From: an uncultured Crocinitomix sp. | GTDB lineage: Bacteria > Bacteroidota > Bacteroidia > Flavobacteriales_D > Crocinitomicaceae | Assembly: GCA_937136425.1 (NCBI GenBank) | Contig: CAKZON010000068.1 | Location: 235,511 to 299,510 of the forward strand | Length of the DNA: 64,000 nucleotides | Reading direction: 5' to 3' | Part shown: positions 4,251 through 13,215 of the stretch, one piece after another | How positions within the stretch are numbered: position 1 is the stretch's first letter | How the letters are laid out: every line of letters begins with the position of its first letter | Translations under genes and position numbers: made by a program | Notes under the pieces: model-generated | What the model saw: the letters and a program-made list of their open reading frames with translations, nothing else | The model's database searches: none | Told to the model about the DNA's origin: nothing

Positions 4251-4775
4251 TTATAATTCATACCATTCTAGCACCTCAAGGTTTCGCCTTCTTCCCTCAT
4301 CTACTGGTGCATAATTTTTAGCCAAATAGGTTAAAATCACATCCTCTGTGGCACCTAAATCCCACAACCCTTGCGTTTCTTGCATCCAAACAATTATATC
4401 CTTCCATCCTTTTCGGTCTGCTTTATTTTGTGTTACCAAATCCAATGAGTGGCAAGCTCCGCAGGTTCTAATAACAAGATCAACTCCATCATCAACAATT
4501 AAACCTGTTGGAGTATGAATTCCATTTTCAATTTCATCTGGATTCAGATCCATAGTCATTAGCATTGGATCAATTACGCTTGTATCTAATACTGATATAT
4601 TTTCATCAGGTGTAGAAAAAAATCTTGGAAAATAAGTCAATTGCACAGTGAAAATTACAGCCGTAACAATTAATAACGAAGCAAATGTTATTGTTCGCCT
4701 AGCTTGTTTCAAAGCCTGCTCATATATCTTTTCTTCTTTTGTCATCAAGCCTGTTTTACTGCTATTCGGTGACAT
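4251..4775 (-). CDS. Sulfite dehydrogenase cytochrome c subunit (SorB-like)
   Basis: N-terminal TM segment, CGACH heme motif; alternative start at 4745 overlaps the sorA-like stop codon; directly downstream of the molybdoenzyme. Confidence 0.7.
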   Translation of the reverse strand: MSPNSSKTGLMTKEEKIYEQALKQARRTITFASLLIVTAVIFTVQLTYFPRFFSTPDENISVLDTSVIDPMLMTMDLNPDEIENGIHTPTGLIVDDGVDLVIRTCGACHSLDLVTQNKADRKGWKDIIVWMQETQGLWDLGATEDVILTYLAKNYAPVDEGRRRNLEVLEWYEL

Positions 4776-5983
4776 GCATTATTTAAATATCCTTTCGGAT
4801 TCCAACCTGGTAAAATCATGGGTTGTACTTTCCCGTTTTCATCCATTGCCCTTGCCCAAATCTCATAATAACCATAACCTGGTAAGGTTACCTCCGTTTT
4901 CCACCTTTGCCACGCCAACCTATTTTTTGGTGGATTCAATTCGCATTTTTGCCATGAAACTCCAAAATCAATAGACACCATTACCGATTTCACCATTAAA
5001 TCTCCTGCCCAAGCATGGCCCCGTACTTCAAATGATTTTCCTTTGCCAATAATTGCTCCCGTTTTTGGATAAGTTACAATTGATTTAACTGGCATAGATT
5101 CGATAATTTTCATATCCTCATCTGGCACTTTTGTTCCTGGTGGCACAGGATATTTAGGAACACGATAAGATTGACCTCCCATTTTTGGTCCGTCATGTTC
5201 TTTATCTCTAATTGCAATTTTAGTTAACCATTTGCCTGAAACTGATGCAGGCCACCCACCCATCACTAAACGCAACGGATAACCGTTCATTTTAGGAATT
5301 GCCTCACCATTCATTGCCCACGCAATTAAAGATTCATCCTCCATTGCTTTTTTAATTGGAACACCTCTAGAAATTACAGTTTTACTCATGTCACCAGAAA
5401 GATGCGTGTCTGCCCCGTAATAACCAATGTACACCGCCGAGTCTTTTACACCCACCGCGTTTAACACATCTTTTAAACGAACGCCTGTCCAACGAGTGCA
5501 GGCTACAGCACCAAGTCCCCATTGATTACCTTTAGCAGGTGGATTAAACTCGCTTCTTCCATTTCCACCACACTCTAATGTTAAATCATAAGTGTAATGG
5601 GTGAAATTATCATACAATTCTTTTAACGTAAATGTTTTTTGTTGTGCAGCAGCTTCTCCTTCAATTGTCAACGTCCAATTCTCTAAATCAAATTCAGTAG
5701 GTGGAATTCCGTTATTGCGCACAAACATTACATTAGCTGGCGTAATTTCAGGATCTAATAAATGCGGAGGTGTTTCGGCATTCCATGGTTTTCTATTTAA
5801 AATAGTTAACGCTTCACTTTTACCTGGTAATTTCTCAGGGTCAACAGTTTCATCTAAACCTATAGGTTCCAATTCTGCAGGAAAATTTTCACCATAAACA
5901 ATTTTAGTACCAACTACCGCGGTTAAAGCGGCCAGAGCCGATTTTGAAATAAATTTTCTTCTAGAATTTTTCTTGTTATTCAT
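4745..5983 (-). CDS. Sulfite oxidase/dehydrogenase molybdopterin subunit (SorA-like)
   Basis: Tat signal SRRKFISKSALAAL; LTLECGGNGRSEFNPPAKGNQWGLGAVACTRWTGVRLKDVL (Mo-ligand Cys region); C-terminal dimerisation domain. Confidence 0.87.
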   Translation of the reverse strand: MNNKKNSRRKFISKSALAALTAVVGTKIVYGENFPAELEPIGLDETVDPEKLPGKSEALTILNRKPWNAETPPHLLDPEITPANVMFVRNNGIPPTEFDLENWTLTIEGEAAAQQKTFTLKELYDNFTHYTYDLTLECGGNGRSEFNPPAKGNQWGLGAVACTRWTGVRLKDVLNAVGVKDSAVYIGYYGADTHLSGDMSKTVISRGVPIKKAMEDESLIAWAMNGEAIPKMNGYPLRLVMGGWPASVSGKWLTKIAIRDKEHDGPKMGGQSYRVPKYPVPPGTKVPDEDMKIIESMPVKSIVTYPKTGAIIGKGKSFEVRGHAWAGDLMVKSVMVSIDFGVSWQKCELNPPKNRLAWQRWKTEVTLPGYGYYEIWARAMDENGKVQPMILPGWNPKGYLNNACHRIAVKQA

Positions 5984-6029
5984 AAGCAAATGAGGTTGGA
6001 AAACCTATAATCGTCATAATTCAACCTAC

Positions 6030-6123: not shown

Positions 6124-7932
6124 GTGATGAATAAATTTTATACTTTGTTTTTTGGGCTGCTATTACTAAGCATTAATGCGTTTACGCAATCGGCCAATTC
6201 TCCTTTTATTTCTGCTGATAAATTAGTCAACCAATTTTCAGATTATGTTGTATTGGATATTTCGAAAAAAGAAAAATTTCAAGAAGAGTCCATTATTGGT
6301 GCACTTAACATATCTCGAGACGATATTTCAAAAACAGATGCGGCTTATGGTGGATTAATAGCAAGCCGTGAAAAATTAGAAAGCTTGTTAAGCAACCTAA
6401 GCATTACTCCAACAGACAATATTGTTGTCTATGATCATAAAGGAGGAAGTGATGCAGCACGTTTATGGTGGGTACTTAAGTATTACGGACATGAAGATGT
6501 TCAATTATTAAACGGAGGATTAAATGCTTGGGGAAACAATAACACATCAATTGACAGCATTATCACACGAGTTGATTCTGTAGCCTATACTTTTCCGAGC
6601 CAATCAAGCAACACCATTGAGATGGCTAGCCTGAACGAAGTAAAAGCAGCTATTGACAACCCAAACGTTCTATTAATAGACACCCGAAATCAAGATGAGT
6701 TTGAAGGAGTGTATCAAAAAGATGGTGCTTTTAAAGCAGGAAGAATACCCGAAAGTGTCCATATAGATTGGGCTGCAAATATTGATTATCATGGCAATCA
6801 ATTATTATTAGAAAAAGATAGTTTATTGTCTCTCTATGCATCAAAAGGAATTACGAAGGACAAAGAAATAATTGTTTATTGTCATTCCGGCGTACGATCT
6901 TCTTTCACTGCGCTTGTTCTTTCTGAAGTATTGAATTATCCAAACGTTAGTAATTATGATGGATCATGGATTGAATGGAGTTACAATGATGAATTGCCCA
7001 TTGATACGGGTGCGGTTATCATTCCAGTTGAAGAACATATAGCTAGTTACAGTGAAGTGTTTTGGGCAGGATTTGGCAATTTTGCTTCTTATACTTGGAA
7101 TGAAATTACTTTTAATGTATCCCCCTGGTATGTCAATTACTTTTGGTTACTTGTAGTGCTTTCATTGGTTGTTTGGCTTTTAGAAATTGCTTTTCCTTGG
7201 CGAAAAAATCAACCTATAGTTCGTAAAGATTTTTGGATTGATGCTTTTTTCATGTTCTTCAATTTTTACATTTTCAAATTAATAATCTTCATGTCTTTTT
7301 CAGATGTTACGGCGAAGTTTTTTCATGACATAATTGGCGGAGATACCACCTCATATTCATTACTTGATTTAGCGAGCTTACCTTTATGGCTGCAGTTGGT
7401 TATCTTTTTTATTGCTACTGATTTTATTCAGTGGTTTACACATGTTTTATTACATAGATTTAACTTTTTATGGCGCTTCCATAAAGTTCACCACTCAATT
7501 GAGCAAATGGGTTTTGCTGGACATTTACGTTACCATTGGATGGAAAACGTTTTCTATACCCCAATGAAATATATTGCAGTAATGTTAATTGGAGGGTTTA
7601 CTCCTGAAATGGCATATATCGTATTTTATATTTCAATTGCAATTGGTCATTTAAACCATGCCAATATAGGATTGGATTACGGTCCGTTCAAATACATTTT
7701 AAACAACCCTAAAATGCACATATGGCACCATGCAAAAGAATTGCCAGAGAACAGACGCTACGGTGTTAATTTTGGGATTTCGTTAAGTATTTGGGATTAT
7801 ATATTCCGTAAAAATTACATCCCATCAAATGGACGAGATATTGAACTTGGATTTGACGGAATTGAACGTTATCCTCGTGGATTTTTTGGATTGATCTTTT
7901 CTGGATTTAGAAAAACGCCAGACGAAAAATAG
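6124..7932 (+). CDS. Fusion protein: signal peptide, two rhodanese domains, sterol desaturase/fatty acid hydroxylase domain
   Basis: Rhodanese 1 VVYDHKGGSDAARLWWVLKYYGHEDVQLLNGGL (no Cys); rhodanese 2 IIVYCHSGVRSS; His boxes HVLLHR, FHKVHHS, HLNHAN, HIWHH. Confidence 0.85.
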   Translation: MMNKFYTLFFGLLLLSINAFTQSANSPFISADKLVNQFSDYVVLDISKKEKFQEESIIGALNISRDDISKTDAAYGGLIASREKLESLLSNLSITPTDNIVVYDHKGGSDAARLWWVLKYYGHEDVQLLNGGLNAWGNNNTSIDSIITRVDSVAYTFPSQSSNTIEMASLNEVKAAIDNPNVLLIDTRNQDEFEGVYQKDGAFKAGRIPESVHIDWAANIDYHGNQLLLEKDSLLSLYASKGITKDKEIIVYCHSGVRSSFTALVLSEVLNYPNVSNYDGSWIEWSYNDELPIDTGAVIIPVEEHIASYSEVFWAGFGNFASYTWNEITFNVSPWYVNYFWLLVVLSLVVWLLEIAFPWRKNQPIVRKDFWIDAFFMFFNFYIFKLIIFMSFSDVTAKFFHDIIGGDTTSYSLLDLASLPLWLQLVIFFIATDFIQWFTHVLLHRFNFLWRFHKVHHSIEQMGFAGHLRYHWMENVFYTPMKYIAVMLIGGFTPEMAYIVFYISIAIGHLNHANIGLDYGPFKYILNNPKMHIWHHAKELPENRRYGVNFGISLSIWDYIFRKNYIPSNGRDIELGFDGIERYPRGFFGLIFSGFRKTPDEK

Positions 7933-7957
7933 TTGCTAGGTTTAAGAAGTAGCAATT

Positions 7958-8659
7958 TCAATTGCCTTTTCCATTAGCTCCTAAAGTGTGAATGCCTACA
8001 ATAATTGCATCTCCTATTTGAAGATCGTTTACTGCTGCGATTGAATCATCTCGAAAACTGGTAATAATAGGTTTATCATCCACTATTTTAACATTTGTAG
8101 GAATGAATTCGTTTCCGAAAATAATTAAAGATTTTCGGCGTAATGAATCCTCTGTGAGAATCATCAATTGAGGTTATGGTTGCAAGTATTGATAAATGAT
8201 TGTCAACCTCAGATTGAGCATTCAAAAATTGGGAAATCATTTCCAATAAAACCTCACCCCATTTTTTGTCCATTTGGTATTTATAAGGAAAAAAATACTC
8301 AATGATATTCCAGTCTCTTTTCAGAGACAATACCTATATTTCCTTATGACTTTTCATGAATTATTCCGGCATAGCCATACTTGTTATGCAAGTATGAAAT
8401 ATAGTACTTATCATCCTGCCTCCAATCTAAATTGAAGTTCTTATCAACAATGCGCATGGTTCTGCTCTTTTATTTTTGACCAATTGAACTTTGGTCAAAG
8501 CAGCAAAAAATTGCAGGTCCCAATCGAATTTTCCTGCTGCTACTTTAGGATGATAATATTTAAGAAATCCCAGATTTTTTTTGCTGTAGTATAACGTTTT
8601 TCAACCTTAGAAACCTCTTGCGAATAACTATTAAAATGGAGTAAAGCAATTACAACCAT
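7958..8659 (-). pseudogene. Degraded S41 (C-terminal processing) peptidase-like gene
   Basis: Fragments in shifting frames: signal-like MVVIALLHFNSYSQEVSKVEKRYTTAKKIW, then GFLKYYHPKVAAGKFDWDLQFF, then WNIIEYFFPYKYQMDKKWGEVLLEMISQFLNAQSEVDNHLSILATITSIDDSH, then FIPTNVKIVDDKPIITSF...LQIGDAIIVG. Confidence 0.7.
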
Positions 8660-8928: not shown

Positions 8929-9333
8929 TTACCAGTTTAAATAACCACCTTCTAATTCTAGCACGTGAGTGAATCCATTTGCCTCAAACACTTTAAGCGC
9001 TTTTGCACTTCTATTACCACTTCTGCAGTAAATTAACACGGGTGCATTTTTATCTAAATTATTGATGTTAGCTTCAAAACTAGGATCATTATAATCAATA
9101 TTACTTGCACCATCAATTGCACCTGATTGAAACTCACCGGGAGTTCTTACATCAATTAATTGTACGTCTGTATTTTCAGCTAAAAACGCTTTAAACTCAG
9201 CTTTACTTACCCGTTTAACCTCCGTTGTAGATTCAACCGTAGTCGTCTCGCCTTGAGTACTTGTTGACTCAGACTGTGCACATGATGTAAATGTAAATAC
9301 ACTCGCTAGTATTCCAATAATTGCAATTCTCAT
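8929..9333 (-). CDS. Exported rhodanese-like lipoprotein
   Basis: Lipobox FTFTSCAQ; LIDVRTPGEFQSGAIDGASNIDY; active-site loop CRSGNRS. Confidence 0.88.
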   Translation of the reverse strand: MRIAIIGILASVFTFTSCAQSESTSTQGETTTVESTTEVKRVSKAEFKAFLAENTDVQLIDVRTPGEFQSGAIDGASNIDYNDPSFEANINNLDKNAPVLIYCRSGNRSAKALKVFEANGFTHVLELEGGYLNW

Positions 9334-9490: not shown

Positions 9491-9787
9491 CTAAATATTT
9501 TGCCACGCACCTGCATTATGCGCTGTAATTCCATTATTTGAAAGCATGCGCTGTGCTTGCCCTGCTCTTGCGCCAGATCTGCAAACTAATACAACCGTTT
9601 TTCCTTTTAATTCTCCCACTTTACTCCCCAAGGTTTGTAACGGAAAGTTTTTACTTCCTTTTACATGTCCTGATCTAAATTCTTCTTTAGTGCGCACATC
9701 CACTACCACGGCGCCATCATTAATTAATGCAGCATAATCAACTTGCTCTCCCACTAACGCTCCTTTTAACTTATCAAAAAATCCCAT
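9491..9787 (-). CDS. Rhodanese-like domain protein
   Basis: VVDVRTKEEFRSGHVKGSKNFPL; CRSGARA. Confidence 0.9.
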   Translation of the reverse strand: MGFFDKLKGALVGEQVDYAALINDGAVVVDVRTKEEFRSGHVKGSKNFPLQTLGSKVGELKGKTVVLVCRSGARAGQAQRMLSNNGITAHNAGAWQNI

Positions 9788-9831: not shown

Positions 9832-9875
9832 CAAATTTAGGGAGCTTGAATGCTTTCGTCAGTAACAAAAGTTAC
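9832..9875 (-). promoter_or_regulatory. Promoter (TAAATTTG) plus GTAACAAAAGTTAC operator upstream of the rhodanese gene
   Basis: Minus -7 element at 9832-9839, exactly 22 bp to dyad 9862-9875. Confidence 0.65.
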
Positions 9876-10678
9876 AGGCTGAAAACTGTTTCTTTTAAAA
9901 CTATGTAAACGCCCATGATTAAAACAAACCAGCCAAATCCTTTTTTAAGTTTATGACCTGCAATAAATTTATTTAAGTAAAGTCCAACAAAAATCCCCAG
10001 TACTGACACACCCGTAAACACTAACAAGAATACCCAATCAATTGGCGTATTTTGCACATCTCCTAAAAAACCTATTAAAGACTTTACTGCAATTATTAGC
10101 AATGATGTTGCCACCGCTTTTTTCATAGGCAATTTTGCCAACAATACTAAGGCCGGTATAATTAAGAATCCTCCACCTGCACCCACAACACCTGTTAAAA
10201 TTCCTACTACCACTCCTTCAATAATAATGAGTGGATAATTAAATTGAACCTCTTCTTCTTCAATTTTCGCCTCTTTTCTTCCTTTAATCATTGAGTAAGA
10301 TGCAAGCAGCATAATAATGGCGAAAAACACCATAATTGAAATGTCTTTCGTTACTACAAAATCTCCTATAGTAAATAATTGATCTGGAATTGCAGGAACC
10401 AAATATTTTCGTGTTAGAAATACGGATAAGAATGCTGGAATTGCGAATACAATTCCAGTTTTAAAATCTACCATTCCTTTTCGAGCATTGACCACTGCTC
10501 CCACTAAAGAAGAGGTTCCAACAACGAAAAGTGAATATGCCGTAGCGACAACTGGGCTTACGTTTAATACATAAACAAGAATTGGTACCGTGAGTATTGA
10601 ACCACCTCCACCAATCAATCCTAAAACGATTCCGATAATTAATGCACCGCCGTAACCTAACAATTCAACCAATTCCAT
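9872..10678 (-). CDS. TauE/SafE family sulfite exporter-like permease
   Basis: GIVLGLIGGGGSILTVPILVYVL and repeat GILTGVVGAGGGFLIIPALVLL; multi-TM. Confidence 0.9.
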   Translation of the reverse strand: MELVELLGYGGALIIGIVLGLIGGGGSILTVPILVYVLNVSPVVATAYSLFVVGTSSLVGAVVNARKGMVDFKTGIVFAIPAFLSVFLTRKYLVPAIPDQLFTIGDFVVTKDISIMVFFAIIMLLASYSMIKGRKEAKIEEEEVQFNYPLIIIEGVVVGILTGVVGAGGGFLIIPALVLLAKLPMKKAVATSLLIIAVKSLIGFLGDVQNTPIDWVFLLVFTGVSVLGIFVGLYLNKFIAGHKLKKGFGWFVLIMGVYIVLKETVFSL

Positions 10679-10755: not shown

Positions 10756-11169
10756 TTAGTGGGGTAATTTACGCCGTAACAAACCATACAAGAATGTGCC
10801 TATAATAGCGCCAAATAATACAATTAGAATTGACCAAGCACCAGCACCAACTAAAACGTACATTGGACCAGGGCAAGCTCCTGCTAATGCCCAGCCTAAT
10901 CCAAAAATTCCGCCACCTAACAAATAACGCGTTATGGACTTGGCTTTTGGTGTAAATTGAATTTCTTCACCATAAATGTTTTTGATGTTTTTTCGTTTGA
11001 TAATTTGAACAAACGCAATTCCAAGCATTAATGCAGACCCTATTATGCCATACATGTGGAACGATTCAAAACGGAACATTTCATAAATTCGAAACCAAGA
11101 AACGGCTTGCGACTTATACATGATGATTCCAAAAATAAATCCGATTGCTATAAATTTTAAATATTTCAT
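10756..11169 (-). CDS. YeeE/YedE (DUF6691-like) half-size transporter component
   Basis: GGGIFGLGWALAGACPGPMYVLVGAGAWSILIVLFGAIIGT. Confidence 0.85.
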   Translation of the reverse strand: MKYLKFIAIGFIFGIIMYKSQAVSWFRIYEMFRFESFHMYGIIGSALMLGIAFVQIIKRKNIKNIYGEEIQFTPKAKSITRYLLGGGIFGLGWALAGACPGPMYVLVGAGAWSILIVLFGAIIGTFLYGLLRRKLPH

Positions 11170-11189
11170 TGTCTCTTTTTATAGCGTGA

Positions 11190-11750
11190 TTAAAGTAAAT
11201 ATGGAAGTATAAAAAACGTCATGACAATTCCGCCAATGAAGAAGCCAATTACGGCAATTAATGAGGGCAATTGTAAATTACTCAAGCCACTAATAGCATG
11301 ACCTGAAGTGCAACCACCAGCCCATCTGGTTCCAAAACCAATTAATAAACCTCCAATAATTAAAATTGCTAACCCTTTGAAGGATGTTATGGCGTCCCAG
11401 CCATATATTTCTTCCGGTACATATGCCTCTCCTGGATTTTCAAACCCGGCGGTTTCTAGTGCAACTATTGTTTTTTCATTTAAATCTATGGCGGTATCTT
11501 CTGACATAAACTGAGAGGCAAAAAAACCACCCAATATTGCTCCAGTCACAACCATTAAATTCCACATTTGGCTTTTCCAATCAAACTTGAAAAAATCAGC
11601 TACTTTTCCTGCACCACCAATACTGCACATAGTCCGCAAGTTTGCAGACATACCAAAGTTTTTACCTGTTAATAATAAAAACAGCATTACTAATGCTATT
11701 AATGGCCCAGAAACATACCACGGCCAAGGTTGAAGAATTGCATCAATCAT
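11190..11750 (-). CDS. YeeE/YedE family (sulfur transport-like) membrane protein
   Basis: GFGTRWAGGCTSGHAISGLSNLQLPSL; multi-TM. Confidence 0.88.
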   Translation of the reverse strand: MIDAILQPWPWYVSGPLIALVMLFLLLTGKNFGMSANLRTMCSIGGAGKVADFFKFDWKSQMWNLMVVTGAILGGFFASQFMSEDTAIDLNEKTIVALETAGFENPGEAYVPEEIYGWDAITSFKGLAILIIGGLLIGFGTRWAGGCTSGHAISGLSNLQLPSLIAVIGFFIGGIVMTFFILPYLL

Positions 11751-12582: not shown

Positions 12583-13215
12583 TTAAAAATCTAGAAATTC
12601 AATTTTATTTCGGTGTAGTTTCAATTTCCCTTCTTTTTCTAAACTTTTTAAAAGTCTAGAAATTACTACCCTTGATGTATGCAAATCATATGCGACTGTT
12701 TGATGCGTAATAGACAACATAGTATCTTTAGTAACAATGACTTTGTGTTTTAAATACTTCAACAAACGTTCATGCATATTTAGAAAAGCCAAATTGTCAA
12801 TCGCCTCCAGCATTTCTTTTAACCTAGAATTATAACTTTCAAAAACAAAGGTTCGCCAAGAGTGAAAATCACGTAGCCAATCAGACATTTTTTGTACTGG
12901 GATTAAAACAATTTTTGTATCCATTTCTGCCATGGCTCTAATTTCGCTAACAGAATTACCCATACAACAAGTTAAAGTCATTGCGCAAACATCTCCCCTT
13001 TCAAGATAATAAAGCAATAGTTCATCTCCATCATCATCCAATCGAGACACTTTTATGGCGCCTTCTAACAATAAGGGCATATATCTAATTGTGTCACCAA
13101 TATTAATAATAACGTCCCCCGCGGCAAAATCTTTTACAATGCCAACATTGTCAATTTCATTCAGTAATGCAGGTTCAAAAAGGTACTCAAAATTATCTTG
13201 CAGAAGTGCTTTCAT
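12583..13215 (-). CDS. Crp/Fnr family transcriptional regulator
   Basis: cNMP-binding fold and HTH ITHQTVAYDLHTSRVVISRLLKSLEKEGKLKLHRNKIEFL. Confidence 0.9.
   Translation of the reverse strand: MKALLQDNFEYLFEPALLNEIDNVGIVKDFAAGDVIINIGDTIRYMPLLLEGAIKVSRLDDDGDELLLYYLERGDVCAMTLTCCMGNSVSEIRAMAEMDTKIVLIPVQKMSDWLRDFHSWRTFVFESYNSRLKEMLEAIDNLAFLNMHERLLKYLKHKVIVTKDTMLSITHQTVAYDLHTSRVVISRLLKSLEKEGKLKLHRNKIEFLDF

Follow-up and report, generated by a model that had tools for sequence, protein, structure and literature searches.

The window, by which we mean the whole stretch of 64,000 nucleotides of a marine Bacteroidota genome that was analysed, encodes at 6127..7932 (+) a fusion protein of 601 aa in which a signal peptide is followed by a tandem rhodanese and by an FA_hydroxylase (FAH) domain, as indicated by the open reading frame, by Pfam and by the relatives of the protein. 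No stop codon interrupts the frame from 6124 to 7932 (+), and GTG 6124, one codon before ATG 6127, offers an alternative start; the first-pass annotation of this locus had given the product as 602 aa, and while the frame is indeed intact throughout, 601 aa is the likelier length because relatives begin at the position matching ATG 6127. The N-terminal signal peptide (6127..6192, +) is recognised as a hydrophobic segment with low pLDDT right behind it, and an export signal is also present in relatives of the fusion, both fused and split. Above its gathering score, Pfam matches Rhodanese (PF00581) in two stretches (E 1.8e-36), where Pfam and the family alignment place a non-catalytic domain 1 with the motif YDHKGGSDAAR (6193..6543, +), and where domain 2 bears the catalytic loop CHSGVRS with its Cys codon at 6880-6882 (6631..6993, +). 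Behind these lie an acidic linker and an amphipathic segment ahead of the first membrane helix (6994..7131, +), three membrane helices at about residues 339-357, 369-403 and 420-442 (7138..7449, +), and the FA_hydroxylase domain itself (PF04116; 7399..7809, +; residues 426-562), detected by Pfam at E 4.7e-25 and 89 bits against a gathering cut-off of 31. Its His motifs, each conserved in relatives, are box 1 HVLLH (H440, H444; 7441..7455, +), box 2 HKVHH (H453, H456, H457; 7480..7494, +), the pair HLNH (H509, H512; 7648..7659, +) and box 3 HIWHH (H532, H535, H536; 7717..7731, +). AlphaFold2 predicted the whole fusion with a mean pLDDT of 86 and the FAH part with one of 89.5. The parts that had been read from the letters were thus all recovered, namely the signal peptide, the Cys-less first rhodanese domain and the second one with CHSGVRS (by open reading frame, Pfam and family alignment), and also the membrane helices with FAH His boxes, through the Pfam match and the conservation of the motif His across 133 relatives (131/133 at one position).

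Divergently from the fusion gene, at a distance of about 135 bp, lies the gene for a SorA-like molybdopterin sulfite dehydrogenase with the twin-arginine signal SRRKFIS (4745..5989, -), accompanied by that for a SorB-like c-type cytochrome with an N-terminal membrane anchor and the haem motif CGACH (4251..4775, -). A neighbouring sulfur module comprises an exported single-domain rhodanese with a lipoprotein-type signal (8929..9333, -), a second small rhodanese-like ORF (cluster c51; 9491..9787, -) in which CRSGARA was read directly, a TauE/SafE sulfite-exporter family protein (9872..10678, -) and two Sulf_transp (YeeE/YedE) half-proteins (10756..11750, -), both assigned by Pfam, and a Crp/Fnr-family regulator (12583..13215, -). 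The earlier description of the region as a sulfite-oxidation island fits this arrangement, with SorA/SorB-like genes at 4251-5989 and sulfur genes (TauE, YeeE halves, rhodaneses, Crp-like) at 8.9-13.2 kb. The segment at 7940-8594 (-) holds the decayed remnant of a gene of about 545 aa, with pieces in three frames (33-79% identical), the counterpart of which is an intact gene at the same place in L001 and L002.

As in the SorA-SorB sulfite dehydrogenase, the molybdopterin and c-haem subunits are encoded in order by adjacent genes. On the other hand, the proteins seen here belong to a divergent subgroup that differs from known SorA-SorB in an altered active-site Tyr, in the membrane anchoring of SorB and in the addition of rhodanese and FAH genes, and they score below the NCBIfam equivalog cut-offs (SorA-like 229/600 bits, SorB-like 23/93 bits). 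The SorA-like proteins have the molybdopterin and dimerisation domains and keep the Mo-ligand Cys and two Arg; the active-site Tyr of sulfite oxidase is replaced by Trp or Phe in 39/41 of them, and the family (the window protein and 40 relatives) usually has Lys at one substrate Arg. Because the SorA-like protein stays below the cut-off and has altered active-site residues, sulfite is to be taken as its putative substrate. An Asn substitutes for a His in this Bacteroidota family.

In the rhodanese half of the fusion, domain 1 is devoid of the catalytic Cys and only domain 2 has one. Among the tandem rhodaneses of the family in which the region is present (n=35), C-[HQ]-[ST]-G-x-R-S is retained in domain 2 and none has a canonical domain 1, although in most of them domain 1 bears a shifted Cys (GGC) where the window protein has Ser. 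Two-domain sulfurtransferases as a rule have a first domain that is non-catalytic; the earlier characterisation of this domain as inactive therefore stands, while there is nothing odd about it. The nearest relatives by sequence are of the thiosulfate-sulfurtransferase type (1uar, E 8e-32; CysA3), and by fold, across both domains, they are CysA2/CysA3 (TMt 0.84-0.86). With TST, SseA and CysA2/CysA3 the protein shares the tandem rhodanese fold, the inert N-terminal domain and the location of the catalytic Cys in the C-terminal one; unlike them, it is exported and joined to a membrane enzyme, and its loop CHSGVRS departs from the canonical CRKGVT or CGSGVT of two-domain thiosulfate sulfurtransferases. 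All tandem rhodanese genes with enough flank adjoin SorA-SorB, one genome excepted in which the genes lie apart, and because a tandem rhodanese gene rarely occurs outside such loci, the best-supported reading of these sequences is that it would serve as a periplasmic sulfurtransferase partnering SorA-SorB.

The FAH half carries the metal-ligand motifs HX3H, HX2HH and HX2HH within a membrane protein, with none of the ligand His missing. The segment between the rhodanese and the first membrane helix has 0 Lys/Arg versus 10 acidic residues, which makes it periplasmic by the positive-inside rule, and hydropathy and charge analysis locates positive charge in the loop after the first helix and in the His-bearing loops. 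Based on the signal peptide and on this charge pattern, the rhodanese is predicted to be periplasmic and the FAH di-metal site to lie on the cytoplasmic face; in the FA_hydroxylase superfamily the His are known to face inside. Stand-alone Crocinitomicaceae FAH proteins whose genes adjoin glycine C-acetyltransferase (KBL) have an N-terminal signal peptide (L015, L019, L021, L033), which supports an outside N-terminus. Neither a profile search nor a fold search returned a PDB match for the FAH part, so that there is no template for its substrate pocket.

The closest characterised relative of FAH is the ornithine-lipid hydroxylase OlsE, with which it shares the Pfam family and the His motifs; to our knowledge, OlsE has no rhodanese part. 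OlsE, a lipid head-group hydroxylase (PMC3972451), also scores best among the NCBIfam models for the membrane domain, at 89 of the 475 bits required and hence below the cut-off. Given its protein family, a lipid is the default substrate for FAH, and a lipid or membrane substrate is our best guess. A function as ornithine-lipid hydroxylase was considered and is not supported, as the OlsE cut-off is missed and no dependence on ornithine lipid was seen: the OlsF-type synthase (PF13444) has only weak matches in the source genome (G000), and strong matches occur in FAH-negative genomes.

Tandem fusions recur at L001, L002, L003, L004, L005 and L007 (genome-contig search), in the genomes G173, G234, G325, G336, G100 and G167 (order-wide search) and, outside Flavobacteriales, in G1102 (class-wide search), where some carriers in the L and G collections may be the same organism found twice. 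An assembly artefact or a missed stop between the domains, raised as a possibility when the gene was first noticed, is ruled out by this recurrence in many independent assemblies, including G100, a single contig of 4.37 Mb. In other genomes the two halves are separate genes in the order SorA-SorB-tandem rhodanese-FAH (L006, L038, L040, G014, G122, G005, G044, G034, G020, G009, G199, G215, G023, G030, G046, G499), and where measured, the split rhodanese and FAH genes are 1-25 bp apart from stop to start or overlap by 4 bp (three cases). Carriers of the split operon that can be cultured include Flavivirga jejuensis and F. rizhaonensis. This being the usual split order, separate homologues do not sit in unrelated contexts, and the first-pass view of an unusual architecture linked to sulfite oxidation is borne out by both the recurrent fusions and the conserved order.

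In a sample of 399 Flavobacteriales genomes, 28 have a SorA-like protein, and with two loci cut by contig ends (G007, G232), 26 are resolvable; FAH adjoins SorA at 19 of these, being fused in 7 and split in 12. The remaining 7/26 are without adjacent FAH and have either SorA-SorB-rhodanese (G049, G065, G077) or neither rhodanese nor FAH beside SorA (G001, G013, G333, G347). FAH is present in 26/28 SorA genomes versus at most 119/371 others (Fisher p 1.4e-10), in a test that is conservative because the FAH count takes in some rhodanese-only or distant matches, and that ignores genome relatedness, although the pattern nonetheless spans many families. Elsewhere in the class, 22 SorA loci were read, and 20 are usable once those cut by contig ends (G1105, G822) are set aside. 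FAH lies within about 2 kb of SorA at 11 of the 20: it is fused in G1102, found with a tandem rhodanese in G499, G864 and G800 (with one intervening gene in G800), and found without one in G530, G1061, G1044, G792, G953, G554 and G460, the last two having FAH upstream of SorA. Two other usable loci have a rhodanese but no FAH near SorA (G923, G1062), and SorA-SorB-FAH also occurs in G578 and G701, which were left out of the count as they had been sampled via FAH.

In a likelihood tree of FAH domains, tandem fusions fall into two well-supported separate clades, one of Crocinitomix and its kin and the other a YceI-locus clade that mixes unfused L016, L026, L030 and L031 with fused L004, L005 and L007; a tree uniting the FAH parts of all tandem fusions in one clade was rejected (p-AU 1.8e-12). 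A third architecture, with one rhodanese and FAH (L041/L125, L126; 455-462 aa), forms a separate well-supported clade. The rhodanese and SorA trees are compatible with a transferred fused gene that could have recombined into resident FAH genes, and because recombination could mimic independent fusion, the count is one of FAH lineages gaining a rhodanese and not of certain joining events. At two syntenic loci, species differ in whether they have a SorA-SorB-rhodanese cassette directly upstream of FAH, which is itself retained (L004/L005/L007 vs L016/L026/L030/L031; L038/L040 vs L039), as would be expected if the linkage were mere genomic hitchhiking in which recombination places the cassette in front of FAH and fusion follows as a by-product. 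We consider this improbable, however, in view of FAH-SorA adjacency in many families and in several layouts (FAH downstream of SorA, upstream of it or divergent from it, and a rhodanese present or missing), of a negligible role for chance according to the Fisher test and of the fact that FAH tracks rhodanese in other sulfur clusters too. That FAH has repeatedly been joined to an exported rhodanese argues strongly, on genomic grounds, for a single process in which both take part. In the single-rhodanese fusions (L041:7860-9245, L126:5110-6477), the exported rhodanese has the loop CSIGYRS, and one of these genes lies beside TauE.

The explanation that we prefer, at a probability of roughly 45%, is that the fusion corresponds, in joined form, to the rhodanese and FAH genes at the downstream end of SorA-SorB-rhodanese-FAH, an operon conserved in Bacteroidota, and unites a periplasmic sulfurtransferase with a lipid oxygenase. 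The Cys of the rhodanese would accept the sulfane sulfur of thiosulfate, and sulfite would be released next to SorA-SorB, which would oxidise it to sulfate and thereby draw the rhodanese reaction forward, while the membrane anchor of SorB and the helices of FAH would keep these components assembled at the inner membrane. A thiosulfate reaction that frees sulfite beside a sulfite dehydrogenase would be the simplest coupling; it leaves the fate of the rhodanese-bound sulfur unexplained. FAH, with its site facing the cytoplasm, would be an oxygenase of a lipid, probably of its head group, with a substrate linked to reduced-sulfur handling, and would get no persulfide directly from the rhodanese.

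FAH is also found without SorA, together with a sulfur module (L008, L013, L014, L020, L022, L010, L029, L032) whose varying members are TauE, an MBL-rhodanese, a CDO-like protein, thioredoxin, a type III SQR-like protein, an exported rhodanese and Crp, the MBL-rhodanese being persulfide-dioxygenase-like and below the Blh cut-off. Flavobacteriales-like genes of this module were seen as well on L024 (NEED01000077.1), which is labelled as the unicellular cyanobacterium SU2 and is probably a case of contamination or mislabelling. In Flavobacteriaceae, a FAH relative is a regular member of an arsenosugar cluster (L046-L080, e.g. L073:7911-8813), where it is surrounded by ArsS, ArsM, TIGR04282/TIGR04283 glycosyltransferases, PNP, a rhodanese and DUF547. 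Since FAH occurs without SorA in this way, its role may not be sulfite-specific. The common thread of its contexts is the combination of an exported rhodanese with FAH: same-strand rhodanese genes are enriched upstream (40 upstream versus 6 downstream), a rhodanese lies directly upstream in 11/78, and at 7 loci the FAH ORF is itself a rhodanese match.

This upstream enrichment, the joining of at least three FAH lineages to an exported rhodanese and the recurrence of FAH with PDO-like, SQR-like and CDO-like genes might indicate that FAH makes sulfite for SorA-SorB from rhodanese-carried sulfur, as a membrane oxygenase of persulfides or polysulfides and an unrelated counterpart of the persulfide dioxygenase-rhodanese fusions of the Blh, PRF and CstB type. 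The window fusion resembles the latter in that a rhodanese is combined, close to sulfite-handling functions, with an oxygen-using enzyme of the non-haem-metal type, and MBL-rhodanese genes related to this type occur in the same genomes as the fusion; however, these proteins have a soluble metallo-beta-lactamase fold, whereas the partner in the window is a membrane protein of the FA_hydroxylase family, and Pfam found no metallo-beta-lactamase-fold domain in the fusion protein. Such an activity appears unlikely, as the rhodanese and the metal site are predicted to lie on opposite sides of the membrane (outside and inside, respectively), PDO-like proteins coexist in 45/46 SorA genomes and we know of no FA_hydroxylase member that oxidises inorganic sulfur. 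The same predicted topology and the same PDO-like proteins speak against the direct coupling of persulfide to the oxygenase suggested in the first-pass annotation, and the latter also lead us to reject FAH as a substitute for the persulfide dioxygenase step. SQR, with its presence in 20/46 SorA genomes only, was ruled out as a universal partner.

A link between FAH and sulfite without direct sulfur transfer would be provided if FAH were a monooxygenase of sulfonolipid (capnine-type) head groups, in which case hydroxylation next to the sulfonate would free cytoplasmic sulfite to be exported by TauE and oxidised by SorA-SorB. An orthologue of cysteate-C-fatty acyltransferase is present in the source genome (PDB 28eh, E 1.7e-168) and in 71/75 sampled genomes, TauE lies nearby in the window, and the head-group specificity of OlsE points in the same direction. 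This acyltransferase is, however, near-universal in both FAH-positive and FAH-negative genomes and hence not discriminating, its location near the operon in one family (f9 genomes) represents housekeeping synteny, and the rhodanese is left unaccounted for; a sulfonolipid substrate is therefore allowed and not favoured, and we regard this scheme as unlikely. A broader formulation, in which FAH would be a novel kind of sulfur-linked membrane oxygenase (for example one that releases sulfite from sulfonolipids or oxidises rhodanese-delivered sulfur) and would form with SorA-SorB a so far undescribed complex for sulfur oxidation, widespread in Bacteroidota, is held as a tentative possibility.

While the individual domains are already known, neither the rhodanese-FAH architecture nor the FAH-SorA-rhodanese operon was found in the literature searched, which took in few subscription journals, and the architecture is apparently undescribed in those papers; such architectures may already be catalogued, without discussion, in public annotation. 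In Bacteroidota, sulfite dehydrogenases seem to be accompanied by a conserved membrane partner of which the papers found make no mention. The fusion provides an experimental handle on thiosulfate and sulfite oxidation by abundant marine heterotrophs, and if the product of FAH is a lipid, membrane lipid chemistry would be tied to sulfur oxidation.

Within the YceI-locus clade, the genes at L004:2751-5179 encode a cupredoxin with a T9SS tail, a small lipoprotein, a YceI protein and a DUF5777 barrel upstream of SorA-SorB-fusion. YceI proteins bind isoprenoids, and the order cupredoxin-small lipoprotein-YceI-DUF5777-SorA-SorB-fusion in this lineage could be understood if FAH modified a quinone or another isoprenoid of the sulfur-oxidising electron chain. 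We give this little credence, as no quinone-synthesis genes are linked and YceI neighbours are limited to that lineage and to the SorA locus L255, where another DUF5777-YceI pair lies near SorA without an adjacent FAH.
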